Source of the DNA: Actinomycetota bacterium
GTDB taxonomy: Bacteria; Actinomycetota; Actinomycetes; Mycobacteriales; Mycobacteriaceae
NCBI GenBank assembly: GCA_018268465.1
Contig: JAFDWN010000015.1
Location: 263,314-327,313, forward strand
Length of the DNA: 64,000 bases
Direction of reading: 5' to 3'
Below the pieces are notes generated by a model. It worked only from the letters and a program-made list of their open reading frames with translations. It did not search any database and was not told the DNA's origin. Positions 12,687 to 35,311 of this stretch are shown here, piece after piece (the first letter of the stretch is position 1; every line of letters begins with the position of its first letter). The translations under genes were made by a program, and so were the position numbers.

Positions 12687-12691
12687 CTCTT

Positions 12692-12759
12692 CCCGCGCGA
12701 ACAGACGCAACGGGCCCGCAAACGGCATGTTATGGGTGAGTTGGCGTCTGCGCGGCGGG
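12692..12759. terminator. Long imperfect stem-loop between convergent genes
   Basis: CCCGCGCGAACAGACGC (12692-12708) can pair with GCGTCTGCGCGGCGGG (12744-12759) with a small bulge. It lies between the stop of the ASCH gene and the stop of the zinc-protease gene, so it probably ends transcription in both directions. No U-tract. Confidence 0.55.
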
Positions 12760-12774
12760 AAATCTCGGGAGATC

Positions 12775-13854: not shown

Positions 13855-14800
13855 GCAGCACACCCCCCTCGAATGGCGCCACGTCGACCGCCACGTCGAT
13901 CACACTACTCTCCGAGTCGGTGTAGATGATCCCGCGCAGCGGCGGCACATCGGCGTAATCGCGCCCGAATCCGACGGTGATGTAACGCTCGTCGACCATC
14001 TGGTCGTTGGTGGGATCCAATCCCAGCCACTGGTTCTGCGGTGTCCAGACCGACGCCCATGCGTGGGTCGCATCCACTCCGACCATACGTTCCTTCCCCG
14101 GGGGCGGGTCGGTGGCCAGGTAACCGGACACGTAGCTGGCAGCCAACCCGTTGGCACGCAGGCAGGCGATCGCGAGCCGCGCGAAGTCCTGACATACCCC
14201 TTCCCGGGCCGCCAAAACCTCGCTCACCTTCGTCGACACCGTCGTCGAACCCGACCGGTAGGTGAAGTCGCGGTAGATCCGGGACGTCAGATCCCGCAAC
14301 ACCTCCACCAGCGGGCGGCCCGGCACGAAACTGGGCTGCGCGTAGGCGCGGATCGCGTCGGTGATCTCGGGCGGTTCCAGGTCGAGGGTGAACTCGGTGG
14401 CGATCGCGCCGTCGAGACCGACGGGCCTGGCGATCTCCCATGGCGCCCTTGCAGATCCGCCGCCGTAGAGCTCCGGCGGGGGCGGATCGACCTCGACCAC
14501 CGAGGTGCTGACGATGCTCAGCGTCTCGTGGCGCTCGGTGACATGGAAGTACGAACTGATGTTGCCGTAGATGTCGCGGCTGGTGGAGCTGTCAGCCGCC
14601 GCCGGCTCGATCGCGAGCTCATGGGTCAGGCAGCGCTGCCGCGACGAATCGCGCGGGGTCAGGAAACCCCGGCCGTAGGAGCTGGTGACCACGTCGGAGT
14701 AGCGGTACACCGTACGGTGGCTGATCTGGTAGCAGCGGCTGCCGCCGGACGCGGTGGGACCGTCGGGGAAGGCCATCCCGGGGCCGTACGCGCCGGTCAC
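13847..14800 (-). CDS. Transglutaminase-like cysteine protease family protein
   Basis: 317-residue cytoplasmic protein with an N-terminal bacterial transglutaminase-like beta domain (YQISHRTVYRYSDVV) and a catalytic core with the triad Cys203 (GVCQDF), His246 (ATHAWASVW) and Asp262 (LDPTND). Prokaryotic members of this fold act mostly as peptidases or amide-transfer enzymes. Start is the GTG in a GTGA overlap with the ATP-grasp gene. It is a shorter paralogue of the N-terminal part of the first gene of the operon, so two transglutaminase cores are made from one message. I recall the M. tuberculosis counterpart as Rv2569c. Confidence 0.88.
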   Translation of the reverse strand: MTGAYGPGMAFPDGPTASGGSRCYQISHRTVYRYSDVVTSSYGRGFLTPRDSSRQRCLTHELAIEPAAADSSTSRDIYGNISSYFHVTERHETLSIVSTSVVEVDPPPPELYGGGSARAPWEIARPVGLDGAIATEFTLDLEPPEITDAIRAYAQPSFVPGRPLVEVLRDLTSRIYRDFTYRSGSTTVSTKVSEVLAAREGVCQDFARLAIACLRANGLAASYVSGYLATDPPPGKERMVGVDATHAWASVWTPQNQWLGLDPTNDQMVDERYITVGFGRDYADVPPLRGIIYTDSESSVIDVAVDVAPFEGGVLRA

Positions 14801-20400: not shown

Positions 20401-20837
20401 CCGAACGGCTTCATGAAGTTCTTCACCCATTCGCGGGAGATCTCACCGGGCCCGGAGTCTTCGCCCTGCTCGTCGACGGGCCGCAGGTAGGGCTTGAGGT
20501 CCTCGGCCAGCGCCTTGGGGTAGTCGAAGCCGATCTGTTCGGCGTAGTCCTCGATGAAGAAGTCGAACGGGTTGATCACCTTCAGGTCGGCGATGAGACC
20601 CACGGTGATGGTCAGCCGGCGCATCCGATTGGGGAACACCAGCCGGGCCACGAAGTTGCCGAACGCGTCCTGCTGCCAGTTCACGAAATGCTCGCCGGGC
20701 TCGATCGTCAGCGAATACGCCTCGATCGGAGTGCGCGAGTGCGGTGCCGGCCGCAGCCGGACGACATGCGGGTACACCTCCACCAGCCGGTCGAACGTGT
20801 AGCTGGTGCGGTGCTCCAGCGCCACCTTGATGCCCAT
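17475..20837 (-). CDS. Transglutaminase core fused to DUF2126 (putative amidoligase)
   Basis: 1120-residue protein and first gene of the operon. Residues 1-300 are a transglutaminase-like module with Cys200 (GSCRDSAW), His249 (LHAWTEVY) and Asp265 (LDPTSG). The rest is DUF2126, a family proposed to be a glutamine-synthetase-like amidoligase; recognisable stretches are [22 protein letters not shown] and [16 protein letters not shown]. The ATG start lies after GGGATCAAACA, a modest ribosome-binding site. It therefore joins a predicted amide-forming ligase to a predicted amide-cleaving or transferring domain in one chain. I recall the M. tuberculosis counterpart as the 'long conserved protein' Rv2566. 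Confidence 0.88.
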
Positions 20838-21094
20838 TGTTTGATCCCATCACAACCGTTTGTCGCTCGCATCGCACGTGGCCGGCGCGATGCATCATCG
20901 CTGCGCCGGGCGCGGAATCGGCGTCCCGCGCGGACGCAACACGAGCACCATCACATCGGGCAAGACGATACCCACAGGATCGGCCGCGGGCTGGGTGGAG
21001 GATGTTCGCGTCGCGCGTCGGCCGGTGTGAGAAAGGCCGCGCTGTGCCATCCCTCGCCGGTCCCGGCGGCGTCACGGTGGCCCGCAATCGTCGG
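20838..21094. other. Intergenic region upstream of the amidoligase operon
   Basis: About 260 bp without a credible gene, on the upstream side of the minus-strand amidoligase operon, so its promoter should be here. I see no clear TANNNT plus spacing that I would commit to, no long repeat and no obvious structured RNA. Confidence 0.4.
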
Positions 21095-21172
21095 ATGGCC
21101 ACGCGGGAGGACGTCGCCGCGCTTGCCGGCACACTGCCCCAGACCACGGAGTTTCTGCAGAACCGCGAATAG
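21095..21172 (+). pseudogene. N-terminal remnant of an MmcQ/YjbR-like gene
   Basis: A 25-codon frame opens with MATREDVAALAGTLPQTTE, which reads like the conserved N-terminus of MmcQ/YjbR double-wing proteins (usual form MAT..DVR.LA..LPGT.E). It then stops at TAG after six more codons, where intact members run for about 110 residues. It ends 28 bases before the selenium-binding protein gene. It may be the stump of a gene lost by deletion; such a short match can also arise by chance. Confidence 0.4.
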
Positions 21173-21200
21173 GGATCTGCGTGCGGAGGATCATCGGAGC

Positions 21201-22613
21201 ATGGCTGCACCTGATCCCACCTTCTATCGCAGCCCGGACGCCGCCGCCACGGCGGCGCCCGAGCAGCTTGCCTACGTCGTCGCCTACGACCCCGCCGGGC
21301 GGCAGCGCGACGCGCTCGCGGTGCTCGACTGTGACCCCGATTCGGCCGGCTACGGCCGCGTCACGGGCTGGACGGAGTTCCCCAGCGCCGGTAACGAACT
21401 GCACCATTTCGGCTGGAACGCGTGTTCGAGCGCGCTATGCCACGACCACTCCGGTCACGACCACGACGGTCCGCGGCGTCGTTATCTGCTGGTGCCGGGG
21501 CTGCGGTCGTCGGCAACCTACGTCCTCGATACGGCCACCGACCCGCGAAACCCGGTGCTGGCGCACACGATCGAGGCGGCCGAGCTGGCGGCCAAGGCGG
21601 GGTACTCCCGTCCGCACACGGTGCATTGCGGACCCGGCGGCATCTTCATGTCCGCGCTGGGCGGCGCCGACGGTGCCGACGGTCCCGGCGGCGTCGCACT
21701 GATCGACCACGACACGTTCGAGGTGGTGGGTCCGTGGGAGCGCGACCGCGGCGAGCAGTTCCTCGCCTACGACGTGTGGTGGCATCTGCGCCACGACACC
21801 GTGGTCACCTCCGAGTGGGCCACCCCGTCGATGATCGAGAACGGTCTGGACCCCGAGGATCTGCTGGGCCGCAAGTTCGGCCATCACCTCAACTTCTGGA
21901 GTATGTCGCAGCGGGCTCTGACCCAGCGCATCGACCTCGGCGACCAGCATCAGATGGTGCTCGAGCTGCGCCCCGCCCACGACCCCGCACAGGCGTGGGG
22001 GTTCGTCGGGGTGGTGATCAGTGTCGAAGATCTCTCCTCGTCGATCTGGCTGTGGCACCGCGCCGATGACCGCTGGGCCGTCGAGAAGGTGATCACGGTT
22101 CCCGCCGAGCCCGCCGAAGCCGGTGATCTGCCGCCCGCGCTGCGGCCGTTCGCCGCGGTGCCGCCCCTGGTCTCCGATATCGACCTTTCGGTGGACGACC
22201 AGTGGCTCTACGTATCCTGCTGGGGCACGGGCGAACTCAAACAGTACGACGTGAGCGATCCGTTCCGCCCGCGCTACACCGGGTCGGTGCGCCTTGGCGG
22301 GGTGGTGGGCCGCCACCCACACCCGGGCGCACCCGACGAACCCCTCTCGGGCGGGCCCCAGATGGTCGAGGTGAGCCGCGACGGGCGCCGCGTCTACGTC
22401 ACCAACTCGCTCTACGCCGCCTGGGACGACGTGTTCTACCCCGATGGCGTGGGAGCCTGGATGGCCAAGCTGGACGCCGACGTCACCGCGGGCGGCCTCT
22501 CCCTCGACGCCCGCTTCTTCCCCCGCGGCGAAGACTTCCGCGGCCTACGGGTCCACCAGACGCGGCTGCAGGGCGGCGACGCGTCCAGCGATTCCTACTG
22601 CTTCACCAGCTGA
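21201..22613 (+). CDS. Selenium-binding protein 56 family / methanethiol oxidase
   Basis: 470-residue seven-bladed beta-propeller of the SBP56 family. Bacterial and human members have been shown to be copper-dependent methanethiol oxidases (methanethiol to formaldehyde, sulfide and peroxide). Visible landmarks: HHFGWNACSSALC near residues 68-80, a His-rich CHDHSGHDHDG stretch, RPHTVHCGPGG, and LYVSCWGTGELKQYDVSDP. The ATG start follows GGAGGATCATCGGAGC. It stands alone and ends directly against the convergent amidase gene. Substrate in this organism is inferred from family only. Confidence 0.9.
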   Translation: MAAPDPTFYRSPDAAATAAPEQLAYVVAYDPAGRQRDALAVLDCDPDSAGYGRVTGWTEFPSAGNELHHFGWNACSSALCHDHSGHDHDGPRRRYLLVPGLRSSATYVLDTATDPRNPVLAHTIEAAELAAKAGYSRPHTVHCGPGGIFMSALGGADGADGPGGVALIDHDTFEVVGPWERDRGEQFLAYDVWWHLRHDTVVTSEWATPSMIENGLDPEDLLGRKFGHHLNFWSMSQRALTQRIDLGDQHQMVLELRPAHDPAQAWGFVGVVISVEDLSSSIWLWHRADDRWAVEKVITVPAEPAEAGDLPPALRPFAAVPPLVSDIDLSVDDQWLYVSCWGTGELKQYDVSDPFRPRYTGSVRLGGVVGRHPHPGAPDEPLSGGPQMVEVSRDGRRVYVTNSLYAAWDDVFYPDGVGAWMAKLDADVTAGGLSLDARFFPRGEDFRGLRVHQTRLQGGDASSDSYCFTS

Positions 22614-24047
22614 TTACGGACCCCGCCGGGGCGCAATGTCGGGTTCGGTCTGCGCGAAGCCGGTGGCCGCCTCGAAGGCCCTGGCGATGCGCAGCAGGCC
22701 GTCCTCGTCGCGGTAGCGGCCGACCAGCTGTAACCCCACCGGCAGCCCGGCGGAGGTGAATCCGGCCGGCACGGAGATCGCCGGATGCGCGGTCACGGTG
22801 ATCCGCGAACACGACCTCAGCCAGGCGACGTAGTGCGGCATCACGTGGTCGCCGATCGCACGCACCCATTGCACCTCGGCGGGAAACGGGGCCACCTGGC
22901 TCACCGGCAGCGCCAGCACGTCGTAGGAGCCCAGAAAACCACGCATCCGATGGTAGGACCGGGTGCGCAGCGTCTGGGCGCGGGCGACGTCGCGCGCGGT
23001 CAGCTGCGCGGCACGTTCGGCGTTCCACCGCACGGTGTCCTTGATCCGGCCGGATTGGCGCTCCACCAGATCGCCGAAGGCGGCCGCGAACGCGACGGCG
23101 CGCAGCACGTCGAAAGCCTCGTCCGCGATGGCCAGCCCCGGCGCGGCGTCCACCACCTCCCATCCCATACTGCGCATCGTTTCACGATGCGGCGCAAGGA
23201 CTTCGGTGATCTCGGGGTCAACCGGCAGATCACCCAGATCGTCGGTCCAGGCCACCCGGATCCGGTCACGTGTCGCGGCCGCCGGTGCGGCGGCGTGCCC
23301 GCCGGGCAGCGAGATCGGATAGCGATCGTCGCGCCCCGTCAAGGCGTGGTAGAGCAGTGACACGTCGTCGACCGACCGTGCGATGGGCCCCAGCACCGAC
23401 ATGGGATCCCAGGCATCGCCGCGGGTCACCAGATCCGGCCACCGCCCCGGCGACGGCCGCAGTCCCACCACGTTGCAGAACGCGGCCGGATTGCGCACGC
23501 TGGCAGCGAGATCCGAGCCGTCGGCGAACGGGAGCATCCGCGCGGCCACCGCCGCGGCCGCTCCCCCGCTGCTGCCCCCGGCCGTGCGCCGCAGATCGTA
23601 GGGATTGCGGGTCACCCCGAACACCTCGTTGAACGTCTGGGAACCGGCGCCGAACTCGGGGGTGTTCGTCTTGCCGACCACGATGGCCCCCGCCGCGCGC
23701 AGCCGCTCGACCATGGGCGAATCCCGTTGCGGCACATGGTCGGCGTAGAGCGGTGAACCGTAGGTCGTGCGCATCCCCGCGGTGTCTTCGAGATCCTTGA
23801 CCGCGATGGGCATACCGTGCAGCGGGCCCGGCGCCGCACCGGCGCGCAACAGCGCGTCGGCGTCGCGGGCCTGGGCCGCCGCACCGTCCTCGTCGAGGGT
23901 CACGATCGCGTTCACCGCGCCGTTGACCCGGCCGATCTGCGCCAGATGCGCCTCGAGCACCTCGACCGCCGAGACCTCGCCGGTGCGCAACGCGGCGGCC
24001 AGCGCGGTCGCCGGCCACCGGTGCAGCTCCCCGCCTGCGCCATTCAT
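22614..24047 (-). CDS. Amidase-signature family amidase
   Basis: 477-residue amidase-signature hydrolase. The Ser-cisSer-Lys triad is visible: Lys in [10 protein letters not shown], the cis-Ser in GGSSGG, and the nucleophile Ser in [11 protein letters not shown]. Family members hydrolyse amides (or Glu-tRNA-linked, urea-derived and aryl-acylamide bonds) to acid and amine or ammonia. The ATG overlaps the LacI stop as ATGA, making this the last of eight coupled genes in the amide operon. Length is normal. With formamidase and the dimethylformamidase-like protein it gives the operon three unrelated amide-cleaving folds. Confidence 0.92.
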
Positions 24048-25051
24048 GTCCGGGCCGTGGATGCGCGGACCTCCAGCCGGGTCGGCAGGATCCGGCTGGC
24101 GGGCGGGGTGTCGGCGGTGAGTCGCGCGACGAGGAGGTCGATCGCGGCCACCGCGAGATTTCCCGGGTCGACGCTCAGGGTGGTCAGGTCGATCCCGAAC
24201 CCGGCGAAATCGGTCCGGTCCGAACCGGCCACCAGCATCAGGTCTTCGGGGATCCGCAGGCCCATCTCGGCCGCGCAGTGCACCACCGACCGGCTCAGTG
24301 CGTCGTCGTTGGCGTACACGCCCAGCGGCCGGCCGCGCCCGGCCAGCGACTCCAGGGCGGCGGTCACGCTGGCCCGGTTCTGCGGCAGCAACGCATGCGA
24401 CGACACGGCGACACCGTGCGCGGCGCACCACTTCTCGTAGGCGCTTTGGCAGTCGGCGGTGTACGAGTCGCGCAGGTCGGCCACGAACAGCGCCGGCTCG
24501 GGGGCACCCACCGCGACCAGATGGTCCAGGACGCGGGTCGTCCCTTCCACATGGTCGTTGTCGACGTAGGTGAGATCGTCGCCGCCGTCGAGGACGCGGC
24601 CCACCGTGACGATGGGCGGCATGCGCCGGGGGTCCCCGGTGAGCGGCTCGTCACGGACGGGGTCGAAGACCACGACCCCGTCCAGCGGCATCCGCGCGAC
24701 CAGCGACGCCTCCTGCCCCGGGGGGATGATGATCAACGAATAGCTCAGTCCCAGAGCATGTTTGGTCGCAGCACGGATTGCCCGGTCGAAATAGTCGATC
24801 TCGGTCAGCCCGAAGGGCGGCGTATAGGCCCGCGGGAAGGCCAGCGCCAGGATGTTCGATCGGCCGGTTGCCAGCGCGATGGCGGCGGCGCTGGGCCGGT
24901 AGCCGAGGCGGTCGGCGATGGCCAGGACGTTGGCGCGGGTCGCCTCGGAGATCCGGCCCTTGCCGTTCATGATGAACGACACCGTGGTGGGCGAGATTCC
25001 GGCCTCGTCGGCGACCTGCTGAATGCTGACCTTGCGGTGTTTGCGGGTCAC
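24044..25051 (-). CDS. LacI-family transcriptional regulator
   Basis: 335-residue LacI-type regulator. The N-terminal helix-turn-helix and hinge read VSIQQVADEAGISPTTVSFIMNGKG and ADRLGYRPSAAAIALATG. The rest is a periplasmic-binding-like sensor domain (VVVFDPVRDEPL, YVDNDHVEG, GVYANDDALSRSV). Its start GTG overlaps the formamidase stop (GTGA). Being embedded in the operon, it probably controls the operon promoter in front of the dimethylformamidase-like gene in response to an amide or a breakdown product; LacI proteins usually sense sugars, so this would be less usual. Confidence 0.9.
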   Translation of the reverse strand: MTRKHRKVSIQQVADEAGISPTTVSFIMNGKGRISEATRANVLAIADRLGYRPSAAAIALATGRSNILALAFPRAYTPPFGLTEIDYFDRAIRAATKHALGLSYSLIIIPPGQEASLVARMPLDGVVVFDPVRDEPLTGDPRRMPPIVTVGRVLDGGDDLTYVDNDHVEGTTRVLDHLVAVGAPEPALFVADLRDSYTADCQSAYEKWCAAHGVAVSSHALLPQNRASVTAALESLAGRGRPLGVYANDDALSRSVVHCAAEMGLRIPEDLMLVAGSDRTDFAGFGIDLTTLSVDPGNLAVAAIDLLVARLTADTPPASRILPTRLEVRASTART

Positions 25052-26022
25052 AGGCACGACTTCGGGAAGGAGACGCCGCAGGTATAGAGTCCGTCGCAGG
25101 CCTGGAAGATCGAGGCGCGCACCAGGGAATTGGCCGTCATGTGCAGGTAGGCCTCGCGCCGGGACATCCCGTAATCGTCGGTCAGCCAACCCATCAGGTG
25201 AAGGTAACAGCTGTCGATGGCCCGTTCGAGGGTGCCCGCGTTGCGGGCCGAGTCGAGCTGGATGAGATCGGTGGCGGTTTCGATGCGGCACACGCCCGGC
25301 ACGGCGCGCTCCGGCAGCGCGGTGCACCGCATCCGTACGTGACCGGCGGTTTCGTCCGCTGTGCCGGTGAGTTCGCCGTCGCCCTGGCTGGCGTGGATGT
25401 CACCGAGGAACAGCAGCCCGCCGTCGTGGGCCGCGTTGAGGTAGACCGTTGCGCCCGGAGCGATCTCGCGACAGTCCAGGTTCCCTCCCCAGGGCCCCTG
25501 TCCGAGCACCGTGTTCTCCGAACCACGTTCGGGTGCCGTGACGATGGTTCCGATGAACGGAGCCAGTGGCCAACGGTGTTCACGTTTGAGCCGCATCACC
25601 ACCTCGCCGTCCCGCAGGGTTCCCGAGGGGCCCGGCTCGTGCTCGAGGCGGGTGGCGGTCGCACCGTGCACCTCCTCCCAGCCGACCAGACCGTCGACGA
25701 TGCCAGAACCGGGATAGGTGATCGTCCACCCGTGATCGCGTACGTCGATCGATTCGATCTCAACGCACAGCGTGTCGCCGGCGCGGACACCGTCGACGTA
25801 GACCGGCCCGGCGACGGGGTTGGAACGGACGCACTGGCTGGCCGCCAACCGCGGGTGGTGGATGACGGAGCCGATCGCGTCCTCATCCTCGACGAGGTCG
25901 TGGAAGAAGTCCTTGGTCTCGACGACGAACGACTCCCCTGCCGCGACGCGCAGTTCCGGCTCCAGGTGGGCGCCGTACTCGGTGTGCACGGCGCGTTCGG
26001 CGGGGATGCGGGGCACAGTCAT
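25048..26022 (-). CDS. Acetamidase/formamidase (FmdA_AmdA family)
   Basis: 324-residue member of the acetamidase/formamidase family, which splits formamide or short amides into acid and ammonia. Characteristic stretches include HHPRLAASQC, GDTLCVEIESIDV, GPWGGNLDCREIAPGATVYLNA and FLGDIHASQGDGE. It starts from an ATG after CAGGAGC and overlaps the permease stop as ATGA. In this operon it could remove the one-carbon part as formate and ammonia after uptake. Length is within the family range (about 310-420); the shorter forms predominate in actinobacteria. Confidence 0.92.
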   Translation of the reverse strand: MTVPRIPAERAVHTEYGAHLEPELRVAAGESFVVETKDFFHDLVEDEDAIGSVIHHPRLAASQCVRSNPVAGPVYVDGVRAGDTLCVEIESIDVRDHGWTITYPGSGIVDGLVGWEEVHGATATRLEHEPGPSGTLRDGEVVMRLKREHRWPLAPFIGTIVTAPERGSENTVLGQGPWGGNLDCREIAPGATVYLNAAHDGGLLFLGDIHASQGDGELTGTADETAGHVRMRCTALPERAVPGVCRIETATDLIQLDSARNAGTLERAIDSCYLHLMGWLTDDYGMSRREAYLHMTANSLVRASIFQACDGLYTCGVSFPKSCL

Positions 26023-26918
26023 GGCTGCTCCTGTCGGTGGTGTGGAGGGATCAGCGCGGCGTCGGGGGCGGGGTCGAGCCCCCGGGCGGCGCTGCGGCCG
26101 GCAGCGGCAGCGACGGTGTCGCCGACGAGGTTCATGCCGACCACCAGAAGCGCCAGCGGTACCGCGGGGGCCGCGACGGCCCACGGATTGAGCGCCAGGA
26201 TGGAGCGGTTTTCCGAGATCATCAGCCCCCAGTCGGCGGCGGGCGGCTGCAGGCCCAGGTTGAGGAAGTTCATGCTTGCCACCAGGACGACGGCGTAGCC
26301 GAACCGGACGCCGATGTCGGCGAAGATCACCGAGACGAGGTTGGGCAGGATCTCCCGCACGCAGATCACCAGCGGCCGCTCGCCGCGCAGCCGCGCCGAT
26401 TCGACGAACGGCAGCACCGAGAGTTCCTGGGTCGCGGTGCGCACCACCCGGGCGATCCCGGGCACCTGCACCAGCACCACGCCGAGGAGCAACACGGGAA
26501 TGGCACTGCCCAGGCCGCCGACGAGGACCAGCATCAGCAGCAGCGCCGGGAACGCCAGCAGCACGTCGATCCCGCGCATCAGCAGCGGGTCGATCCAGGT
26601 GCGCCGCAGACCCGCCAGCATGCCGATGGACACGCCGGCCAGGTAGGCCAACAGGGTCGCGCACACGCTGATGGCGATGACCGACACACCGCCGTCGAGA
26701 AACCGGCTGAGCACGTCGCGGCCGAGGGCGTCGGTGCCCAGTGGGATGCCAGGCCCCGGCGGTGAACCGGGCACCCCGACGGGGGTGTCGATCGGATGCG
26801 GCGCGACCAGCGGTCCGACCAGGGCGACGAGGGCCACCGCGACGATCATGATCGCCCCGATCCGGCCGCCCGGGGTGGCGCCCACCGACCGCAGCACCGC
26901 GGGAACCGCCATCCTCAC
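26019..26918 (-). CDS. DppC-type ABC transporter permease
   Basis: 299-residue permease with the DppC N-terminal pattern PLGTDALGRDVLSRFLDGG after the first helix, five further helices and an EAA loop (ARLRGERPLVICVREILPN). The GTG at 26918 gives a GTGA overlap with the upstream permease gene; an ATG two codons later is an alternative. It pairs with the DppB-type protein of this operon. The C-terminus is longer and more basic than usual (PAPDAALIPPHHRQEQP). Confidence 0.9.
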   Translation of the reverse strand: MRMAVPAVLRSVGATPGGRIGAIMIVAVALVALVGPLVAPHPIDTPVGVPGSPPGPGIPLGTDALGRDVLSRFLDGGVSVIAISVCATLLAYLAGVSIGMLAGLRRTWIDPLLMRGIDVLLAFPALLLMLVLVGGLGSAIPVLLLGVVLVQVPGIARVVRTATQELSVLPFVESARLRGERPLVICVREILPNLVSVIFADIGVRFGYAVVLVASMNFLNLGLQPPAADWGLMISENRSILALNPWAVAAPAVPLALLVVGMNLVGDTVAAAAGRSAARGLDPAPDAALIPPHHRQEQP

Positions 26919-27940
26919 GCCTCCGTCCGCAGCGCCGGGACCAACCACACGGTGACGAGGTCGGCGACGATGTTCACCGCGACGTACACCGCGGCCAGGA
27001 TCAGCGCGATATCGCAGATCACCTGCACGTCGCGTGTCGACACCGCCTGCACGAGTTCCTTGCCGATGCCCGGATAGTTGAAGACGTTCTCCACCACGAT
27101 CACCCCGCCGACCAGGTACAGGCCGGCTTGGGCCAGCACCTGCACGCTGGGGCCCAGCGCGTTGCGCACCCCGTAACGCCACAGCACACGGCGCTCGGGA
27201 ATGCCGTTGAGCCGGGCCATGGTGACGTACTCGCGCCGCAGCACGTCGGCGGTTCCGGCCCGCACCATGCGGGTGGCGCCCGACAGCGTGACCAGCAGCA
27301 GGGAGAGCACCGGCAGGATCAGCGCCGTCGGGTCGTCCAACGGTGTCTGCCCCGGCCCGATCGACGAAACCGGGGGCAGCAGCCCGAATCCGGTGAAGAA
27401 CACCAGCACGAGCACCGTGGCGACGAGGAATTCCGGCAGCGCACCGAACACCAGCGCCACCACCGACACCGCGTGGTCGACGGGCCGGCCGGCGTGCACG
27501 GCGGCCAGCGCACCCAGCGCCAGGGCCAGCGGCACCAGCAGCAGCACACAGGTGACGGCGAGGATCGCCGAGTTCAGCAGCGGGCCCGAGATCGCATCCC
27601 ACACCGCGGGGTGGGGGTCGCCCTGGGCGACCGCCACCGAGGAGTTGCCCAGGTCGCCACGGACTACACCCGTGAGCCAGCGCAGGTAGCGGACCGGCAG
27701 TGGATCGTCGAGGCGCAGGTCGGCGCGCAACGCGGCCAGCGATTCCGGTGTCGCGTTGCGTCCCAGCACCGACGCCGCGACGTCGCCGCGCAACGCCTGC
27801 ACGGCGGCGAAGATCAGCGCGGACGCGACCAGCAGGACCGCGATGCCGGCGAGCAGCCTGCGGATCAGGAACGCCAGGAAGGGATGCCGGGCGCGGGTGG
27901 CGGACGGCGGTGCGGCTGGGAACGGGGCTGTGACGGTCAT
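26915..27940 (-). CDS. DppB-type ABC transporter permease
   Basis: 341-residue permease with an N-terminal helix at about residues 25-50, the loop LRLDDPLPVRYLRWL and EAA motif MARLNGIPERRVLWRYGVRNA, ending NIVADLVTVWLVPAL. It starts in an ATGA overlap with the fused ATPase gene. It is the first membrane subunit of the second peptide-type importer in this window and is not closely similar in wording to the DppB-type protein at 4.4-5.4 kb. Confidence 0.9.
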   Translation of the reverse strand: MTVTAPFPAAPPSATRARHPFLAFLIRRLLAGIAVLLVASALIFAAVQALRGDVAASVLGRNATPESLAALRADLRLDDPLPVRYLRWLTGVVRGDLGNSSVAVAQGDPHPAVWDAISGPLLNSAILAVTCVLLLVPLALALGALAAVHAGRPVDHAVSVVALVFGALPEFLVATVLVLVFFTGFGLLPPVSSIGPGQTPLDDPTALILPVLSLLLVTLSGATRMVRAGTADVLRREYVTMARLNGIPERRVLWRYGVRNALGPSVQVLAQAGLYLVGGVIVVENVFNYPGIGKELVQAVSTRDVQVICDIALILAAVYVAVNIVADLVTVWLVPALRTEA

Positions 27941-29724
27941 GCGCTGGCCACTTCGCGTCCGGTGTCGACGACGGGCGCCGCGGCGATGAGCTCGCGGGTG
28001 TAGTCCTCGCGGGGGTCGGACAGGACCTGCGCGACCGGTCCGCGCTCGCAGATGCCGCCCCGGTCGAGGACGAGGACGGTGTCGGCGATCGCGGCCACGA
28101 CACCGAGGTCGTGGGTGATGAACAGCAACGCCAGGTTCATCTCATCGCGGATCTCGGCGAGGGTGGCCAGCACCGCCGCCTGCACCGAAACGTCCAACGC
28201 CGAGGTGATCTCGTCGCACACCAGCACGCGGGGGCGCGCGGCGAGCGCGCAGGCGATGGCCACACGCTGGCGTTCTCCGCCGGACAGTTCGGCCGGGTAC
28301 CGTCGCGCCGTCCCTGCCGGCAGGCGCACCGCGTCCATGAGCCGCGTCGCCTCGGCCCTGGCCGCGCCGCGGTCCAGCCGGCGCAGCACGATCGCGGGCC
28401 GCATCACGGCGCCCAGCACCGCGCGGCGCGGGTTCAGCGCCGCCTCGGGTTGCTGGAAGATCATCTGGACGGCGCGCAGTTGTTCGCGCGAACGCCGGCC
28501 CACGCTCGCGCCGAGGGCCGCGCCGTCGAGCCGGATCTCACCGGCACTGGGCGTGTGCAGTCCCGCCACCGCCCGCGCGATGGTGGTCTTGCCGCTGCCG
28601 GACTGCCCGACGAGTGCCACGCACTCGCCCGCGCGGATGTCGAAGTCGATGTCGCGGGCCACCACCGCCGCGTCGCGTCCCGACCCGTGCCTGGCGGCGA
28701 GTCCGGTGACCGACAGCACCGGCGCTCCCGTGGGCGCGGGCCGAGATGTCCGCGTCTGCACCGGCTCCCGCGTCAAGGCACCATCGGTGTCGGTGGTGCG
28801 CAGGCAGCGCGCCTCGTGCCGCGGCCCGACCGGCACGGGGGCAGGGTCGTCGCGCAGGCAGGCGTCCTCGGCCAGCGGGCACCGTGGCGCGAACGCGCAA
28901 CCGCGCACGACGCTGCCCGTCCGCGGCGCCGACCCGGCCATGGCGCGCGGCATGCCGCCGCGGCGGTGGTCGGGAGTCGAGCGCACCAGACCGACGGTGT
29001 AGGGGTGGCGCGGGTTGGTGAGGATCTCGCCGACCGGTCCCTGCTCGACGATTCGCCCGGCGTAGAGGACCGCGACCCGGTCGGCGATCGAACTGACGAC
29101 GGCCAGATCGTGGGTGATGTACACCGCGGCCACGCCGTCTTCGGCCCGCAGCCGCGCCAACTCCTCGATGATCTGCGCCTGGGTGATGACGTCCAGGCCG
29201 GTGGTCGGCTCGTCGAGCACGACCACCGGCGGCCCGCCGGTCAGGGCCACGCCGATGCACACCCGCTGCTGCTGGCCGCCGGAGAGCTGGTGGGGGAACC
29301 GGGCGGCGAATCCCGCGTCCGCGGGCAAACCGACCTTGCGCAGGGTGGCGCGGACGGAATCGTCACGGCCGGAATGCATCTCGGCGATGACATCGCGGAC
29401 GCGCATGGACGGGTTGAGCGCCGCACCGGGGTTCTGGGGCACGTAGGAGATCAGTCGGCCCCGGATCGCGCGGCAGGCCCGCTCGTCGCGCAGGTCGACG
29501 TCGCGACCGGCGATCCGCAGCGTCCCGCCGCGGATCGACACCCCGGCCCTGGCGAAACCCAGAAGGCCCAGCGCCAGCGTCGATTTGCCGGCACCCGACT
29601 CGCCGACGACACCGAGGATCTCACCGGCGGCCACGGACAGCGACACGTCGCGCACGATGTCGCCGCCGTCGCCGGCGGCGACGAATCCGCACATGTCGAT
29701 CACGCTCGCGCGTGCCGGGTTCAC
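27937..29724 (-). CDS. Fused DppD-DppF ABC ATP-binding protein (two nucleotide-binding domains)
   Basis: 595-residue protein holding both ATPases of the importer in one chain. Domain 1: Walker A GESGAGKST, signature LSGGQQQR, Walker B VLDEPTTGLD, H-loop ITHDL, then the Cys-rich oligopeptide domain (CAFAPRC, EDAC). A linker of about 40 residues follows. Domain 2: Walker A GQSGSGKTT, signature LSGGERQR, Walker B VCDEITSALD, H-loop ITHDL. I use the GTG that overlaps the binding-protein stop (GTGA); a GTG 12 bases upstream (29736) is also possible. Such fusions guarantee a 1:1 pair of domains. Confidence 0.88.
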   Translation of the reverse strand: MNPARASVIDMCGFVAAGDGGDIVRDVSLSVAAGEILGVVGESGAGKSTLALGLLGFARAGVSIRGGTLRIAGRDVDLRDERACRAIRGRLISYVPQNPGAALNPSMRVRDVIAEMHSGRDDSVRATLRKVGLPADAGFAARFPHQLSGGQQQRVCIGVALTGGPPVVVLDEPTTGLDVITQAQIIEELARLRAEDGVAAVYITHDLAVVSSIADRVAVLYAGRIVEQGPVGEILTNPRHPYTVGLVRSTPDHRRGGMPRAMAGSAPRTGSVVRGCAFAPRCPLAEDACLRDDPAPVPVGPRHEARCLRTTDTDGALTREPVQTRTSRPAPTGAPVLSVTGLAARHGSGRDAAVVARDIDFDIRAGECVALVGQSGSGKTTIARAVAGLHTPSAGEIRLDGAALGASVGRRSREQLRAVQMIFQQPEAALNPRRAVLGAVMRPAIVLRRLDRGAARAEATRLMDAVRLPAGTARRYPAELSGGERQRVAIACALAARPRVLVCDEITSALDVSVQAAVLATLAEIRDEMNLALLFITHDLGVVAAIADTVLVLDRGGICERGPVAQVLSDPREDYTRELIAAAPVVDTGREVASA

Positions 29725-31313
29725 TGGGTCAGCCACGCGCTCTTGAAGTCGTAGTTGTTGGCAAATCCTGACGGCGTGGCCTCGATGCCCTGCACGGCGT
29801 TACGGTAGCCGTCGATGTAGGGCTGGGCCGACCAGATGATGTAACCGCCCTCGTCGAACTGCGCCTGCTGCACGTCGCGCCAGCGGTCGGCGGCGCGCAC
29901 CGGGTCCGTCTCGGCGATCGCCGCCCGCACCTGGCCGTCCGCGGCCGCGCCGCCCCAGTGGGTGACGTTGTACGGGGCATCGGTCACCAGGCCCTGCAGG
30001 TAGAACGCGGTCAGCGACGGGATCAGCGTCCAGTAGTCCTGGCTGAAGGTGTTGCGCATGTATCCCCCGGCGTCGGTGAAGAACACCGACGGATCCTGGC
30101 GGGTGATGTCCACGGTGACCCCGCCCTCGGCGGCCTGCTGTTTGAGCAGCGTCGCCGATTCCACGAAGCCGGCGGTGATGGGCGAGGTGATGAGCTCGAT
30201 CCGCAGATCCTGCTGGCCGGCGGCGCGCAGCAGCGACCGGGCCTGGTCGACGTCGCGCGAGCGGGTGAGATCGCCGGCGAAGTACTCCAGCCCGTAGCCG
30301 GGCAGGTCGTTGCCCAGTTCGCCGAAACCGGCCAGGACGTTCTGGATCATCGCGTCGCGGTCGACGAGCAGCCGCATCGCCTGTCGCACCCGGACATCGC
30401 GGGCCGGACCCTCGTCGACGCGCATGTAGAACATCTGGCACTGCGGGCCGTTGCCCACGCTGACCCGGAACTGGTTGCCGCCGGAATACTGGCGGGCCTG
30501 GGTGAACGGCAGCTGGGGAGCAACGTCGATCTGTTGGGCCAGCAACGCGTTGAGACGGGCCTCGTCGTCGCTGAACGACGAATTGATGACCAGTTCGTCG
30601 ACGTAGGGCTTGCCCTCCTGCCAGTAGTTCTTGTTGGCGCTGAACACACTTCGTGTGCCCGGCTGGAAGGACTCGTAGACGAACGGCCCGGTGCCGACGG
30701 GGGTGTCGAAGTCGGTGAACCCGTCGGGGATGACGCCGGCGGTGTAGTACGCCAGCAGCGACGGCAGTTCGGCTATGCCGCTGTGCAACGGCACCTCGAC
30801 GGTCATCGGGTCGCGGGTGCGCAGAGCCGCGAAGTCGATGAGCGGCCCGACGACCGGGTTGAAGTAGGACTCCTCGGAGGCCCAGGAGCGGATCGTGTAC
30901 AGCACGTCCTCGGCGGTCAGCGGTTTGCCGTTGTGGAACTGCACACCGTCACGGATCCGGAAGGTCCATAGCGTGGCCTCGGCGTTGTGTTCGCCGGAGG
31001 CGGCCAGGGCCGGCACCGGCTTGTTATTGCTGTCGAGCGCGTACAGCCCCTCGTAGAGCTGATAGTTGCGCGCGGTGTCGGGAAGGGTGAAACCCTTTCG
31101 TACGTCCAGTGTTTCGGTGCGCCCCGCGGTGATCATCCCGACGGTGAGCCGGCCGCCGCGACGGACTTCGCCCGGTGCGCCGGCACTGCCCGGGGAGCCG
31201 CCGTTGCCGCCGCACGCGGCCAGCAGGGGAATCCCCAGCAGTGCCGCACCGCCCCATCGGAGAAGCTCGCGCCGATCGACACCCTGCCGGACTGGATACA
31301 CACCCTCGGTCAT
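29721..31313 (-). CDS. SBP family 5 substrate-binding lipoprotein, Tat-type signal
   Basis: 530-residue extracytoplasmic solute-binding protein of the DppA class. The signal reads DRRELLRWGG (twin-Arg followed by E-L-L, close to the Tat consensus) and ends in a lipobox LAAC with Cys34, so it is probably a Tat-exported lipoprotein. Landmarks: FRIRDGVQFHNGKPLTAEDV, GTGPFVYESFQPG. It starts in an ATGA overlap with the dimethylformamidase-like gene. Ligand is unknown but should be the substrate or a relative of the substrate of the co-encoded amide hydrolases. Confidence 0.9.
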   Translation of the reverse strand: MTEGVYPVRQGVDRRELLRWGGAALLGIPLLAACGGNGGSPGSAGAPGEVRRGGRLTVGMITAGRTETLDVRKGFTLPDTARNYQLYEGLYALDSNNKPVPALAASGEHNAEATLWTFRIRDGVQFHNGKPLTAEDVLYTIRSWASEESYFNPVVGPLIDFAALRTRDPMTVEVPLHSGIAELPSLLAYYTAGVIPDGFTDFDTPVGTGPFVYESFQPGTRSVFSANKNYWQEGKPYVDELVINSSFSDDEARLNALLAQQIDVAPQLPFTQARQYSGGNQFRVSVGNGPQCQMFYMRVDEGPARDVRVRQAMRLLVDRDAMIQNVLAGFGELGNDLPGYGLEYFAGDLTRSRDVDQARSLLRAAGQQDLRIELITSPITAGFVESATLLKQQAAEGGVTVDITRQDPSVFFTDAGGYMRNTFSQDYWTLIPSLTAFYLQGLVTDAPYNVTHWGGAAADGQVRAAIAETDPVRAADRWRDVQQAQFDEGGYIIWSAQPYIDGYRNAVQGIEATPSGFANNYDFKSAWLTQ

Positions 31314-33517
31314 GTCGTTCCGTCCTGTCGGTCGCGGCCGTCCTCGAGCCGCGGGAGTTGGGGTATCGCAGCGCGCAGGAATCGGCGCAATGCGTTGGTG
31401 GTCATCCGAGCGACCGGGTTGCGGAAGTCGTCGACGGGCATGGCGGTGGCCCAGCACATCGACGGCGCCGCGAACACGCCTCCCCCACAGGGGTTCTCGT
31501 AGATCGCGATCTCGCTGCTCGGCGCCCGGCGGCCACCCGCCAGGCCGTCGTGGTGGCTGTGGCCCCCGGAGACGGCCACGACAGCGGTCACCGGAGGGGT
31601 GCCGTACCGCGGGTCGGTGCGGTCGTACTCGTCACCGGCCGCGCCGCCGAGCGCCAGACCGTCAGTGCCGATCGGCCCGTCTCCGACACCGTCGTAGAGC
31701 GCGTCGGCGATATCCCCGGGCAGGTCGGGCGCCCGGTGGTACGGGACCGCATGGCGCCAGCCCTCCGCGGCGAACGTGGTGGCCAGGATGGACGCGGCGT
31801 CACGCCCGCGGCCCCGCCAGGTGCCGCCCTGCTCGCCGGTGGTGCTCAGTCTCAGTTCGGCGCCGTCGACACCCCAGCGGGGTTCGGTGTGCGTCAGATC
31901 CTCCTTGCGCACCTCGATGACATACGGCCGCTCCGGATGGACGCCGACAACCCACCACATCTGGTTCCCGCCGATGTTGAGGACCCGTCCGCCCCCGGCG
32001 ACGTAGCGCTCCAGCGCGGTGCGCATGGGTGCGCTCCAGTACTCGTGGTGGCTGCCGAGGACGACGACCCGGTACCCGGCCAGCAGCCCGGCACCGCGGT
32101 GGTGCAGGTCGTCGTCGGTGAGGACGTCGTGGGGGACGCCGAGGCGGCGCAGCCAGGCCACCCGGTACATGTCGGCCACGAAGTGGCGCGGCGCGCCGGT
32201 CCAGTACTGGCGCTGGCGGGGGCGCAGGTTGAGGATCGGCCGGCGCGCCGAGGAGTAGCAGACGGGTCCGCTGCCGTCGTCATGGAGGTCGTAAAGCGAT
32301 TTACCAAACTCGGGATGGGCGGCGATCAGCGCGTCGTGCGGCTGCAGCGCGGGTTCTGCCCCGGTGTCGTCGCGCCAGTCCACCAGCGGTGAGGCCCAGT
32401 ACCGTTCGTTGGCGTACGCGAGGTAGGTGAACGTCGGGAACACCACCGCCACGTCGGCCGTCGCAGCCGCCGGGGTGACGAACAGCGGTACCTCCTCGCG
32501 TTCGCCCTCGTCATCGGTGAGCTCGCAGGCATAGACCCCGCTGGGCAGGTCGCCGGGAATGGCGAGTTCGAAATCGGCCGACCAGCCCGCGTCCTCGATA
32601 TCGTCGGCGTGGAAGCCGATCGCGTCATAGGTGTCGGCCGCCAGCAGCCGATTCGGCTCCCCGCCGTCCCATCGCGGCCCGGTGAGGCCGCGGGCGGGCA
32701 TGTTGAGCAGCGTCGCATGCGCAGCGTGGGGGCCGCGATCGACGACCGTCACGGACTCGGGCGCCGCGGCGAAATCCCATGCCGCGATCACCGGCGCGGA
32801 GTGCTCCCGATAGCCGACCGGATCTCCGATGCCGTTGCCTGCGAACAGCATCGGCGCCGCGATACGCCCGTCGAACTGCTCGGTCCAAGATCGCTGGACC
32901 GTCAGCGAGCCGGCCATGCCGAGGGGGAGGGAGCGCTGGGGCTCCATGCCGGCCGGCTCGCTGACGGTGGACTGGAGGGTCGGAGGTGCCGGATCCCACG
33001 GCGCGGGCGCCCCCCGGTATGAGACCACGGTACGGCCGCTGCGGGCGTCGTGCGCAGCGACGCACGCCCACCACCGGTCCGGGGTGACAGGATCGTCCGC
33101 GACGACGCTGACCACGCCCGCGCCGTCGCCGAGCCAGAACTCCAGGCGTCCGTCCGGATGCAACCGCACGCCGTAGCCCGCGCGCTCGGCGCGACAACCG
33201 GCACCGATCAGGGTGGCCACACTCCTCGGCGCCCGGCTGAAGCGCACCCACAGCGCGACGCTGAAGGCGGCGGGCAGCGGCGGCGGGCGCTCGACGACGG
33301 CACGCGAACCACACGCGGTGGTCTGCTCCCGGCCGGGCCAGCGGCCCGCGCCGACACCGTCGACGGCGTCGACCTCCTCGGGCAGGCCGGCGGCACCGCC
33401 GTCGGCGAGCCAGTGCCTGGTCAGCCGCGACCGGTACCACGGACGGTCGGTGCTCACCCGCACCGGCACCTGCTGCCCGGGCGACACCGACAACCTGTCC
33501 AAGTACGCGATCAACAC
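31310..33517 (-). CDS. N,N-dimethylformamidase large-subunit-like mononuclear iron amidohydrolase
   Basis: 735-residue homologue of the large subunit of N,N-dimethylformamidase (DMFase), which splits DMF into dimethylamine and formate. The characterised Paracoccus enzyme, from memory, binds iron through Tyr399, Tyr440 and Glu521, with His519 and Asn547 nearby. Here Tyr368 (LAYAN), Tyr409 (LYDLH), His490/Glu492 (SHHEYW) and Asn518 (GGNQMWW) have matching spacings: 41 residues between the Tyr pair, 26 from Glu to Asn, and one 2-residue offset between the two groups. A LamG-like insert lies at about 80-230. GTG start, GGAG upstream; first gene of the operon. No DMFase small-subunit gene is next to it, so the partner is missing or not needed. 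Confidence 0.85.
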   Translation of the reverse strand: MLIAYLDRLSVSPGQQVPVRVSTDRPWYRSRLTRHWLADGGAAGLPEEVDAVDGVGAGRWPGREQTTACGSRAVVERPPPLPAAFSVALWVRFSRAPRSVATLIGAGCRAERAGYGVRLHPDGRLEFWLGDGAGVVSVVADDPVTPDRWWACVAAHDARSGRTVVSYRGAPAPWDPAPPTLQSTVSEPAGMEPQRSLPLGMAGSLTVQRSWTEQFDGRIAAPMLFAGNGIGDPVGYREHSAPVIAAWDFAAAPESVTVVDRGPHAAHATLLNMPARGLTGPRWDGGEPNRLLAADTYDAIGFHADDIEDAGWSADFELAIPGDLPSGVYACELTDDEGEREEVPLFVTPAAATADVAVVFPTFTYLAYANERYWASPLVDWRDDTGAEPALQPHDALIAAHPEFGKSLYDLHDDGSGPVCYSSARRPILNLRPRQRQYWTGAPRHFVADMYRVAWLRRLGVPHDVLTDDDLHHRGAGLLAGYRVVVLGSHHEYWSAPMRTALERYVAGGGRVLNIGGNQMWWVVGVHPERPYVIEVRKEDLTHTEPRWGVDGAELRLSTTGEQGGTWRGRGRDAASILATTFAAEGWRHAVPYHRAPDLPGDIADALYDGVGDGPIGTDGLALGGAAGDEYDRTDPRYGTPPVTAVVAVSGGHSHHDGLAGGRRAPSSEIAIYENPCGGGVFAAPSMCWATAMPVDDFRNPVARMTTNALRRFLRAAIPQLPRLEDGRDRQDGTT

Positions 33518-33662
33518 ACCTGCTCCGTAGGGTGGTAAAGGGCTTCACCTAAGCTCTCACCGGCATGTCACGCTGTCAACCGCAGACGGACAACCCGTTG
33601 CCTGCCGGTCGGCGCGGGCCGTCGTGCACGTCGAGGCACGCCGCCCAGGACGGAGGTTTGTC
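33518..33662. promoter_or_regulatory. Divergent promoter region of the amide operon and the C45 hydrolase gene
   Basis: A TTGACA hexamer on the minus strand (33579-33574) is a possible -35 for the amide operon. GGTAAAGGGCTTCACC (33534-33549) is an imperfect dyad (12 of 16 positions symmetric) just before the operon's first start codon, a sensible place for the operon's LacI regulator. Neither is proven. The plus-strand gene has GGAGG at 33652-33656. Confidence 0.35.
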
Positions 33663-34805
33663 GTGGACACCACAGCCGGTCACCCACTGCCGGTCGTCGC
33701 CGTCGCGGGCGCCGCCCGCGACCGCGGCACCCAGTACGGTGCGCAGGCCCGCGCGGCGGTACGCCGGACCCGGGACGCGTACGAGGCGGTCTTCGCCCAC
33801 TACGCGCTGTGGGACTGGGAGCGGGTGCGTGACGAGTCGATGGCTTTCGTCGACCCGATCACCGCATTCCATCCCGCGTCGGTCGAGGAGATGCACGGCA
33901 TCGCCGACGGCAGCGGGCTGACGTTCCCCGATGTGCTGGCCATGAACCTGCGTACGGAGATTTTGTTCGCCGCCAAGGTCCGCACCGCCGGAGCGACCAT
34001 CCCGCCCGTGCTGGAGTGCACGTCGTTCTCGGGTCTGGACGCCCGGGGCAGACGCCTGATCGGACAGAACTGGGACTGGCTGACCTTCGCCGCGGACACC
34101 GTCGTCATCCTGGAGTCCACCCCCGACACCGGACCGCGGTGGATGACCGTGGTCGAGGCTGGACTGCTGGCCAAGTTCGGGATGAACTCCTGCGGGCTGG
34201 CGTTCACGACCAACGCGCTGGCCTCGTCGGCAGATACCGGCGCGCCGGGTGTCCCCTACCACGTGATGCTGCGCGCACTGCTGGACTGCCGCACCCCGAC
34301 CGACGCCGCCACGCTGCTGCAGTCGGCGCACCGCTCGTCGTCGGCGAACTACATGTTCGCCAGCGGCGACGGCCTGGCGGTGGATGCCGAGACCAGCCCG
34401 GGCGGGTTCGAACGGATCACCTGGGAGCTGCCCGACGACACCGGGATCCTGTTGCACGCCAACCATTTCTCGGTGAGTCCGGCCCGCGACGGCGGCCTGG
34501 CCGACGTCGGCATCAAGCTGATGGCCGACTCACTGTTCCGGTTGCAGCGCATCCGTCACCTGACCCGGTCCACACCGGCCGCCGGCGTCGAGGACTGGAA
34601 GCGCATCATGGGCGACCATGCCGGCCATCCGTCGGGCCTGTGCTGCCATCCCGACCCGCATGCGGACGCGGCCGACCGCTGGCTGACGGCCAGCGGCGTG
34701 GTGTTCGAGCCCGCCGCACTGCGGGCCCACGTGTGTGCGGGCAATCCGTGCGAGGCCCGGTGGACGGTGCGCGACTACGCGCAGGAGTGGGCAGGCGCGA
34801 GCTAG
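33663..34805 (+). CDS. C45-family Ntn hydrolase (acyl-CoA:6-APA acyltransferase / carcinine hydrolase-like)
   Basis: 380-residue protein of the AAT/peptidase C45 family, made as a precursor that cuts itself to expose an N-terminal Cys nucleophile. The predicted nucleophile is Cys119 in VLECTSFSG (usually GCTS), followed by GQNWDW, typical of the family. Relatives hydrolyse amide bonds of acyl-amines such as beta-alanyl-amines or swap acyl groups on penicillin nuclei. The GTG at 33663 is chosen because GGAGG lies 6 bases upstream; a GTG 39 bases earlier lacks one. Divergent from the amide operon with only 145 bp between, so co-control is likely. It overlaps the HxlR stop by 4 bases tail to tail. 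Confidence 0.85.
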   Translation: MDTTAGHPLPVVAVAGAARDRGTQYGAQARAAVRRTRDAYEAVFAHYALWDWERVRDESMAFVDPITAFHPASVEEMHGIADGSGLTFPDVLAMNLRTEILFAAKVRTAGATIPPVLECTSFSGLDARGRRLIGQNWDWLTFAADTVVILESTPDTGPRWMTVVEAGLLAKFGMNSCGLAFTTNALASSADTGAPGVPYHVMLRALLDCRTPTDAATLLQSAHRSSSANYMFASGDGLAVDAETSPGGFERITWELPDDTGILLHANHFSVSPARDGGLADVGIKLMADSLFRLQRIRHLTRSTPAAGVEDWKRIMGDHAGHPSGLCCHPDPHADAADRWLTASGVVFEPAALRAHVCAGNPCEARWTVRDYAQEWAGAS

Positions 34806-35311
34806 GAGTGGTCGGCGTCCTGGGTGTGCCCCGCCTCGAGGGATTGACCCGCGGCCATCCGCACGCCCAGTTCGTCGGCGGGCACGTCGTGCCCTTCGGC
34901 ACAACGGATATGCACGGTGGCCTCGGCCCCGCAGCCCAGGTGTGTGAGCCGCAGCCTGCTGTCGCCGAGGTGTTTGCGGCCCCACTCGAACATCGACCAC
35001 ACCACCGGCATGAAGTCGATCCCGGCCTGGGTCAGCACATACTCGTCACGGCTGCGCTGACCAGGCTCCCGGTAGGGGCGGCGCTGAAGCAGCCCGGCCT
35101 CGACCAGGTCGGCCAGCCGCGCGGATGTCGCCGCCTTGGTGATACCGACGCGGCGCACGAAGTCGTCGAATCTGGTGGTGCCGTAGTAGGCCTCACGCAT
35201 GACGAGCATCGTCGATTTCGAGCCCAGCGCGCCCATCGTCTTCTCGATCGGGCACCGGCCCACGGCCGACCAGGACTCACGATCACTGAGCGCGCCTTGG
35301 AGCACTGCCAC
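34802..35311 (-). CDS. HxlR-family transcriptional regulator
   Basis: 169-residue MarR-like winged-helix regulator of the HxlR type. The DNA-binding part covers about residues 15-105: CPIEKTMGALGSKSTMLVMREAYYGTTRFDDF, then GITKAATSARLADLVEAGLLQRRPY. The C-terminal 60 residues have two Cys residues in LGCGAEATVHIRCAEG, which could bind metal or sense redox state. GTG start. It is divergent from the thiolase gene with a 94-bp gap holding repeated CTGAGTT motifs, so it probably controls itself and the thiolase. Confidence 0.88.
   Translation of the reverse strand: MAVLQGALSDRESWSAVGRCPIEKTMGALGSKSTMLVMREAYYGTTRFDDFVRRVGITKAATSARLADLVEAGLLQRRPYREPGQRSRDEYVLTQAGIDFMPVVWSMFEWGRKHLGDSRLRLTHLGCGAEATVHIRCAEGHDVPADELGVRMAAGQSLEAGHTQDADHS

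Follow-up and report, generated by a model that had tools for sequence, protein, structure and literature searches.

Introduction

Two solved enzymes of a mononuclear-iron amidohydrolase family were encountered in this analysis: the dimethylformamidase (DMFase) DmfA1A2 of Paracoccus (PDB 6lvb) and an N-acetyl-(R)-beta-phenylalanine acylase (PDB 8huy). In Paracoccus DMFase, the iron ligands are Tyr399, Tyr440, and Glu521, an H519A mutant is inactive, Phe693 from a neighboring subunit constricts the pocket, and the large subunit produced without the small subunit is not active (PMC7686228). A second dmfA1-dmfA2 locus is present on pAMI5, and this paralog has not been found linked to the use of dimethylformamide (DMF) (PMC4543880). 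Among amide operons with importers, fmdA and amiE have been described together with urtABCDE (PMC13209695). Here, we describe a locus in a stretch of 64,000 nucleotides (hereafter the window; NCBI GenBank assembly GCA_018268465.1, contig JAFDWN010000015.1, positions 263,314 to 327,313) from an actinobacterium of the Mycobacteriaceae, in which a homolog of the large DMFase subunit, here called DMFL, is encoded at the head of an operon with its own importer and a LacI-type regulator. We read this locus, with a probability of roughly 55%, as an acquired, LacI-controlled catabolic operon for the import and hydrolysis of a medium-sized peptide-like or N-acylated amide.

Results

Eight genes on the minus strand run from 33517 to 22614, and all seven junctions between them are 4-bp overlaps of start and stop codons, reading ATGA, GTGA, ATGA, GTGA, ATGA, GTGA, and ATGA in operon order (Table 1). 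The products are, in this order, DMFL, a binding lipoprotein, a fused double ATPase, two permeases, a protein with the FmdA/AmdA fold, a LacI regulator, and an amidase-signature enzyme. A gene for a C45-type Ntn hydrolase faces them: its start at 33663, behind GGAGG, is separated by 145 bp from the GTG start of DMFL at 33517, and its stop overlaps the stop of a gene for an HxlR-type regulator. An initial annotation of this DNA had proposed the eight overlapping genes and the facing hydrolase, and all of its frames, junctions, and coordinates were borne out, as were the families that it named (in Pfam, PF20254, SBP_bac_5, ABC_tran twice, BPD_transp_1 twice, FmdA_AmdA, LacI, Amidase, and AAT). 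Its claim that an importer and a regulator are dedicated to one tight gene string is also supported, and the Dpp/Opp-type importer set is complete, namely SBP_bac_5, two BPD_transp_1, and two ABC_tran.

When inspected by eye, the N-terminus of the binding protein, MTEGVYPVRQGVDRRELLRWGGAALLGIPLLAAC, has a twin-arginine (Tat) signal and a lipobox, and the first 60 residues of DMFL, the FmdA homolog, the amidase, and the C45 hydrolase have no signal peptide; DMFL also has no long hydrophobic segment. The hydrolases should therefore be cytoplasmic and their substrate imported. Expected catalytic residues were found in three of the four hydrolases: DMFL, the amidase, and the C45 hydrolase.

The operon is probably a single transcript, and the LacI protein would repress it. 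The near-palindrome that scores best within the 145-bp gap, GGTAAAGGGCTTCACC (33534-33549), was considered as a candidate operator and rejected as no better than chance, since 686 of 1000 shuffles do equally well. Two further matches at 3 mismatches occur in the window, inside DMFL and at 60921 (0.25 expected), neither of them at a promoter of this operon, and no operator is claimed from them. A promoter scan gave one promoter-like site, upstream of the HxlR gene, and a terminator scan gave two terminator-like sites against 2.4 expected.

DMFL scores 252.3 bits with PF20254 (gathering cut-off 27) and aligns over its full length with Paracoccus DMFase (E 1.6e-95), its closest solved relative, and with 8huy (E 8.2e-74). 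In a family alignment of 43 rows, which includes the window and some near-copies, Tyr399, Tyr440, and His519 are present in all rows and Glu521 in 42; the window row has all four, so that the iron site of two Tyr and one Glu with its adjacent His is found in DMFL, and DMFL also has an equivalent of Asn547 of Paracoccus DMFase. The segment 678-705, which bears Phe693, is 16 residues long in the window versus 27-31 in all 42 other rows, with a gap at position 693 itself, and this shortening of the gate loop was found solely in the window row. Like 8huy, DMFL carries Thr at position 395 and lacks Phe at 693, and the loss of the gate loop would leave its pocket open. DmfA1A2 and the window thus share the large-subunit family, the iron ligands, His519, and Asn547; they differ in that the window has no small subunit that we could find, has lost 12 residues of the gate loop, and has a LacI regulator rather than the LuxR-type DmfR and an importer of the peptide type.

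In a family tree of 42 rows, 8huy groups (96/100) with three proteins of Rhodospirillales that have no small-subunit gene, each of which adjoins a family-5 binding protein; in Roseomonas, a class-III aminotransferase is encoded there as well. The likeness of DMFL to 8huy has limits, however: DMFL does not fall in the clade of 8huy, although it forms a long branch whose placement in the tree is unsure, and the operon has no aminotransferase. As a separate observation, Aminobacter plasmid pMDW2 (locus L087) carries at 12363-14726 a second, adjacent copy of the large subunit with Ala at the iron ligand Glu521, beside an intact copy.

The small subunit was searched for with an iterated model whose starting set was 11 small genes annotated upstream of DMFA2 genes, and genomes were searched with a model of 11 rows (A3). 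No match was found in window frames of at least 60 codons at E<=10, nor in the own genome with A3 at E<=1. As a control, A3 was run on 21 other genomes with a DMFA2 gene: 11 gave matches at E<=5.4e-12, three gave weak matches (E 4e-4 to 0.08) not adjoining their DMFA2 gene, and seven gave none. Absence of the small subunit hence appears common in the DMFA2 family, the control genomes being often without a match. The entries of 8huy list one molecule only, the sole indication that this acylase may work without a small subunit. A small-subunit query against the PDB, an insensitive search, returned no relevant chain, not even that of DMFase.

The FmdA-fold protein passes PF03069 with 76.9 bits (cut-off 27) and reaches 58.5 bits with the formamidase equivalog NF045496, for which the cut-off is 500; the label "formamidase" that it had received is therefore too specific. 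Its best plasmid relative, with 41% identity, is haloarchaeal. The amidase barely passes the general amidase model NF005686 (Table 1), and its best PDB match is 6-aminohexanoate-cyclic-dimer hydrolase (3a2p, E 4.9e-52), followed by GatA subunits and urethanases; its KD, GGSSGG, and SDLAASVR motifs, which we take to hold the Lys and the two Ser of the amidase-signature triad, align by eye with 3a2p.

The C45 hydrolase scores 257.7 bits with the C45_proenzyme model NF040521 (cut-off 85), and Cys119 is aligned in all five orthologs from the genus. The ortholog locus that was studied closely has a polysaccharide-deacetylase-like gene, two genes for short-chain dehydrogenases/reductases (SDRs), C45, a frame of LuxR-type and Peripla_BP_6 character, a binding protein, and a LIV importer; of the other ortholog loci, two have the order SDR-SDR-C45-ATPase, one ends at a contig end, and one differs. 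The C45 gene of Streptomyces cadmiisoli comes after genes for a LacI regulator, a polyamine-type importer, an SDR, a VOC protein, and a polysaccharide deacetylase. Because C45 tends to adjoin importers, its membership in the pathway is plausible, although C45 has a history of its own. The LuxR/Peripla_BP_6 frame (L072, 10540-12339) is a side observation: its 600 aa combine a DNA-binding domain of the LuxR type with a domain of Peripla_BP_6, the family of the amide sensor AmiC, and it could be two genes.

Table 1. Positions of the features discussed (window coordinates unless a locus is named).
Feature	Coordinates	Strand	Remarks
DMFL, DMFA2-type mononuclear-iron amidohydrolase, 735 aa, first operon gene	31310..33517	-	PF20254 and Laminin_G_3
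Family-5 (SBP_bac_5) solute-binding lipoprotein, Tat signal, 530 aa	29721..31313	-	PF00496, 222 bits; ATGA overlap
Fused DppD-DppF-type double ATPase, 595 aa	27937..29724	-	Two ABC_tran stretches and oligo_HPY; GTGA overlap
DppB-type permease, 341 aa	26915..27940	-	BPD_transp_1 and its N-terminal domain; ATGA overlap
DppC-type permease, 297-299 aa (start GTG 26918 or ATG 26912)	26019..26918	-	BPD_transp_1 (protein from 26912); GTGA overlap
Acetamidase/formamidase-fold predicted hydrolase, 324 aa	25048..26022	-	PF03069, 76.9 bits; best solved relative 5ubu, E 8e-31
LacI-family regulator (start GTG 25051; GTG 25057 also possible)	24044..25051	-	PF00356 and PF13377 (protein from 25057); GTGA overlap
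Amidase-signature enzyme, 477 aa	22614..24047	-	PF01425, 333 bits; NF005686, 466.5 vs cut-off 465
C45 (AAT) Ntn hydrolase, 380 aa, candidate nucleophile Cys119	33663..34805	+	NF040521
Divergent intergenic region, 145 bp	33518..33662	.	Without convincing operator or sigma-70 promoter
Approximate inserted block	20856..34852	.	Absent from five syntenic relatives
Permease-small-subunit fusion	L087, 8257-9909		Aminobacter plasmid
Permease-small-subunit fusion	L089, 8278-9930		Agrobacterium plasmid
Permease-small-subunit fusion	L099, 8275-9930		Rhizobium plasmid; permease by annotation, no Pfam scan
Permease-small-subunit fusion	L048, 7331-8899		
Permease-small-subunit fusion	L037, 11225-12814		

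The window is part of contig C6 in an assembly of 6.88 Mb, whose five PPE-domain genes would point to Mycobacterium. Five related genomes lack the operon, the C45 gene, and a methanethiol-oxidase-like gene, which together form an insertion of about 14 kb between conserved genes: homology of these relatives to the window ends at 20854-20988 and resumes at 34853-34869, and at the site they carry 1.3 to 9.2 kb of other cargo, of which the sole match to the block is a 76-bp piece of an ATPase gene. At one locus (L149), gene order is kept on both sides across most of an 18-kb stretch. The DNA was thus inserted as a block, and it was probably gained by transfer rather than lost elsewhere. Its G+C content is 70.9%, against 68.8% in the rest of the window and at most 70.2% in other scanned stretches of equal size. 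Contamination was considered as the origin and rejected: the assembly shows 5.86% contamination, yet the block is flanked on either side by DNA in synteny with the genus. The extent first proposed for the system, 22614 to 34805, was right in its coordinates and too narrow as a unit, the insertion reaching from about 20856 to 34852 and including the methanethiol-oxidase-like gene.

In terms of occurrence, the genome samples behind the counts for the genus, the family, the class, the FmdA homolog, and the HxlR block (below) overlap in part. At the DNA level, none of 247 other genomes from the genus matched more of the operon than single genes; such single-gene matches occur in 17 of the 247, and in five of these the gene is C45 (71-77%). 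The DMFL protein has relatives in four of 300 other genomes of the family (E<=1e-20), all four outside the genus, and, at E<=1e-40, in 17 of 393 others of the class, with identities of 33-43%. Scanning 84,980 species genomes by an approach that detects close relatives only gave two relatives at 32-33%. No homolog of the FmdA-fold protein was found at E<=1e-50 in 295 other genomes. The initial annotation had set conserved co-occurrence of these genes in related genomes beforehand as the test of its proposal, and such co-occurrence was found neither in the genus nor, for FmdA and C45, around DMFA2 genes: at the search thresholds used, no homolog of either was present in the 24 DMFA2 loci that were fetched (L028-L051). 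Amidases of 46% identity occur in two of these loci (L044 and L047) and a LacI homolog in one (L041).

Importers accompany DMFA2 genes in varied form. Dpp-type permeases or family-5 binding proteins are near in five of the 24 loci (L028, L029, L040, L050, and L051), with only the binding protein in L029 and only the permeases in L051. On plasmids, 15 loci were opened among 83 records matching DMFL, many of the others being near-copies from Agrobacterium; nearby are family-5 binding proteins in four (L090, L092, L096, and L097, the first two from one strain), LIV-type importers in three (L087, L089, and L099), polyamine-type or similar importers in two (L093 and L098), AmiS/UreI channels in two (L085 and L088), MFS/DMT carriers in one (L086), and no such transporter so close in three (L091, L094, and L095). 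The pairing of a DMFA2 gene with a family-5/Dpp importer thus recurs in other phyla. In 13 further genomes, those whose binding proteins are closest to that of the window (E<=1e-90), the importer stands without a match to DMFL, FmdA, C45, or the amidase in the 13-20 kb fetched.

A search with the binding protein led to a locus of Rhizobium leguminosarum (CP050565) that encodes, in a row, a small subunit, a large subunit (31% identity to the window), a binding protein (35%), DppB (45%), DppC (38%), and a fused ATPase (44%). Here, too, an amidohydrolase, a binding protein, and a Dpp-type importer with a fused ATPase are lined up; the Rhizobium locus differs in having the small subunit and in its ATPase being last, whereas that of the window precedes the permeases, and no FmdA, LacI, or amidase is annotated in the stretch. 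Within the genus of the window, a cassette (L082, genome G878) shares the binding protein (33% identity), DppB (43%), DppC (39%), the fused ATPase (51-52%), and the amidase (29%), but its stretch has no match to DMFL, FmdA, or LacI. The fmdA/amiE-urtABCDE operons are alike in combining an ABC importer with short-chain amide hydrolases in one cluster and differ in their urea-type importer and annotated formamidase, with no DMFA2 enzyme mentioned in the available part of the source (PMC13209695). The initial annotation knew of no described operon of this make-up, and none of the open-access papers listed in our literature searches describes one, as judged by title or abstract start. The operon looks like a new combination of known parts and one more import-and-hydrolyze cassette among DMFA2 relatives with varied importers.

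Discussion

In the reading that we favor, an amide of medium size, peptide-like or N-acylated, would be bound extracellularly by the Tat-exported lipoprotein and taken into the cytoplasm by the Dpp-type ABC importer. DMFL may then make the first cut, at a substituted amide bond. Hydrolysis of the remaining amide bonds, to acids, amine, and ammonia, may fall to the FmdA-fold protein and the amidase, and the facing C45 hydrolase probably serves the same pathway. The joint pathway and the order of these cuts are suggested by gene content and gene order, and the substrate would be bulkier than formamides. With no small subunit found, its gating loop lost, and an importer and a regulator of its own, DMFL might represent a route to a new class of substrates for the iron site, and that substrate could be sought directly through the binding protein.

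Several observations weigh against this reading. The complete set and order of eight genes was found in no other genome examined, and the C45 orthologs of the genus occupy another importer module. Since the same genus has the importer-amidase cassette without DMFL, the importer need not serve DMFL. In the ATPase tree, the window and Rhizobium lie on opposite sides of a 99/98 branch, and in the tree of binding proteins (27 rows kept of 31 found) both are unplaced; a single ancestral operon of DMFL and importer common to the two is therefore unsupported, their importers not being sisters, and DMFA2 genes and such importers seem to have come together on more than one occasion. Among actinobacterial genomes, moreover, a family-5 binding protein lies within 8 kb of a DMFA2 gene in at least three of 22, the window included, where 1.07 are expected (P for three or more, 0.08), so that the association in Actinobacteria is not clearly above background; adding G501, which has Dpp permeases and no family-5 binding protein nearby, gives four of 22 (P for four or more, 0.016).

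A special case of the favored explanation is the scavenging of N-acyl-beta-amino acids or N-acyl amino acids, in which DMFL would be an N-acylase like 8huy and the other hydrolases would trim amides of the released compound. The match to 8huy, the failure to find a small subunit, the residues at 395 and 693, and the family-5 binding proteins and aminotransferase beside 8huy relatives fit such a role, but the position of DMFL outside the 8huy clade, on a long branch of unsure placement, and the lack of an aminotransferase in the operon make this narrower version rather unlikely. The locus could instead be a loose assembly, an importer-amidase cassette into which DMFL, the FmdA homolog, and LacI were inserted with no shared substrate, the C45 and methanethiol-oxidase-like genes being neighbors only by insertion at a variable site. 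Such an origin would account for the same-genus cassette without DMFL, for the C45 orthologs in another importer module, and for the different cargo in the five relatives; it sits poorly with seven translational overlaps, DMFL at the head included, and with operon members that are all amide hydrolases, importer parts, or a regulator, and we regard it, too, as a doubtful account. Catabolism of formamide or of N-substituted, DMF-type formamides, with DMFL freeing amine and formate and the FmdA homolog splitting formamide, which the initial annotation had favored in calling the system "formamide-type", is very improbable despite the Paracoccus enzyme being the closest solved relative, the iron ligands kept in DMFL, and the FmdA/AmdA-fold gene within the operon, because the small subunit was found neither in the window nor in the genome while the Paracoccus large subunit alone is inactive, the Phe693 loop is deleted, and the FmdA homolog is far from formamidases, to which may be added that the pAMI5 paralog has not been linked to DMF use and that DMF should need no peptide-type importer.

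Apart from the operon itself, five loci were observed in which a LIV-type ABC permease, encoded directly before the large subunit, ends in the small-subunit domain, over its final ~90 residues (Table 1). Two further candidates, L042 and L045, were rejected, because their small-subunit genes seem to be free ones that had been read as part of a long frame. Such a permease is an importer to which one subunit of an enzyme, presumably the one that acts on the imported cargo, is covalently joined, and none of the papers listed in the same literature searches describes this fusion. One might speculate that DMFA2 enzymes are importer-coupled, that the small subunit was originally a docking part tying the hydrolase to the permease, and that DMFL is an untethered, open-pocket derivative, minus docking subunit and gate loop, that cuts a large imported amide; we consider this scenario improbable as it stands.

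As for the genomic setting, the interval 20837-34802, between a large gene (17478-20837) and the HxlR-thiolase genes, holds different cargo in each of the five relatives and is thus a variable integration site. The HxlR-thiolase-Baeyer-Villiger monooxygenase block is common in the genus: a 3.5-kb query was matched over some part by 154 of 178 genomes, counting the one that contains the window. The large gene lies across from HxlR in five of eight fetched neighborhoods, as in the window, these five being the relatives compared above, and was not seen in the other three. Within the block, the gene at 21195-22613 for a selenium-binding-protein/methanethiol-oxidase-like protein converges on the amidase gene with no gap, and its match to the MtoX model is weak (103.8 bits versus 650). 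A second Dpp-type importer cluster lies apart from the operon, at 2588-8261 of the window.

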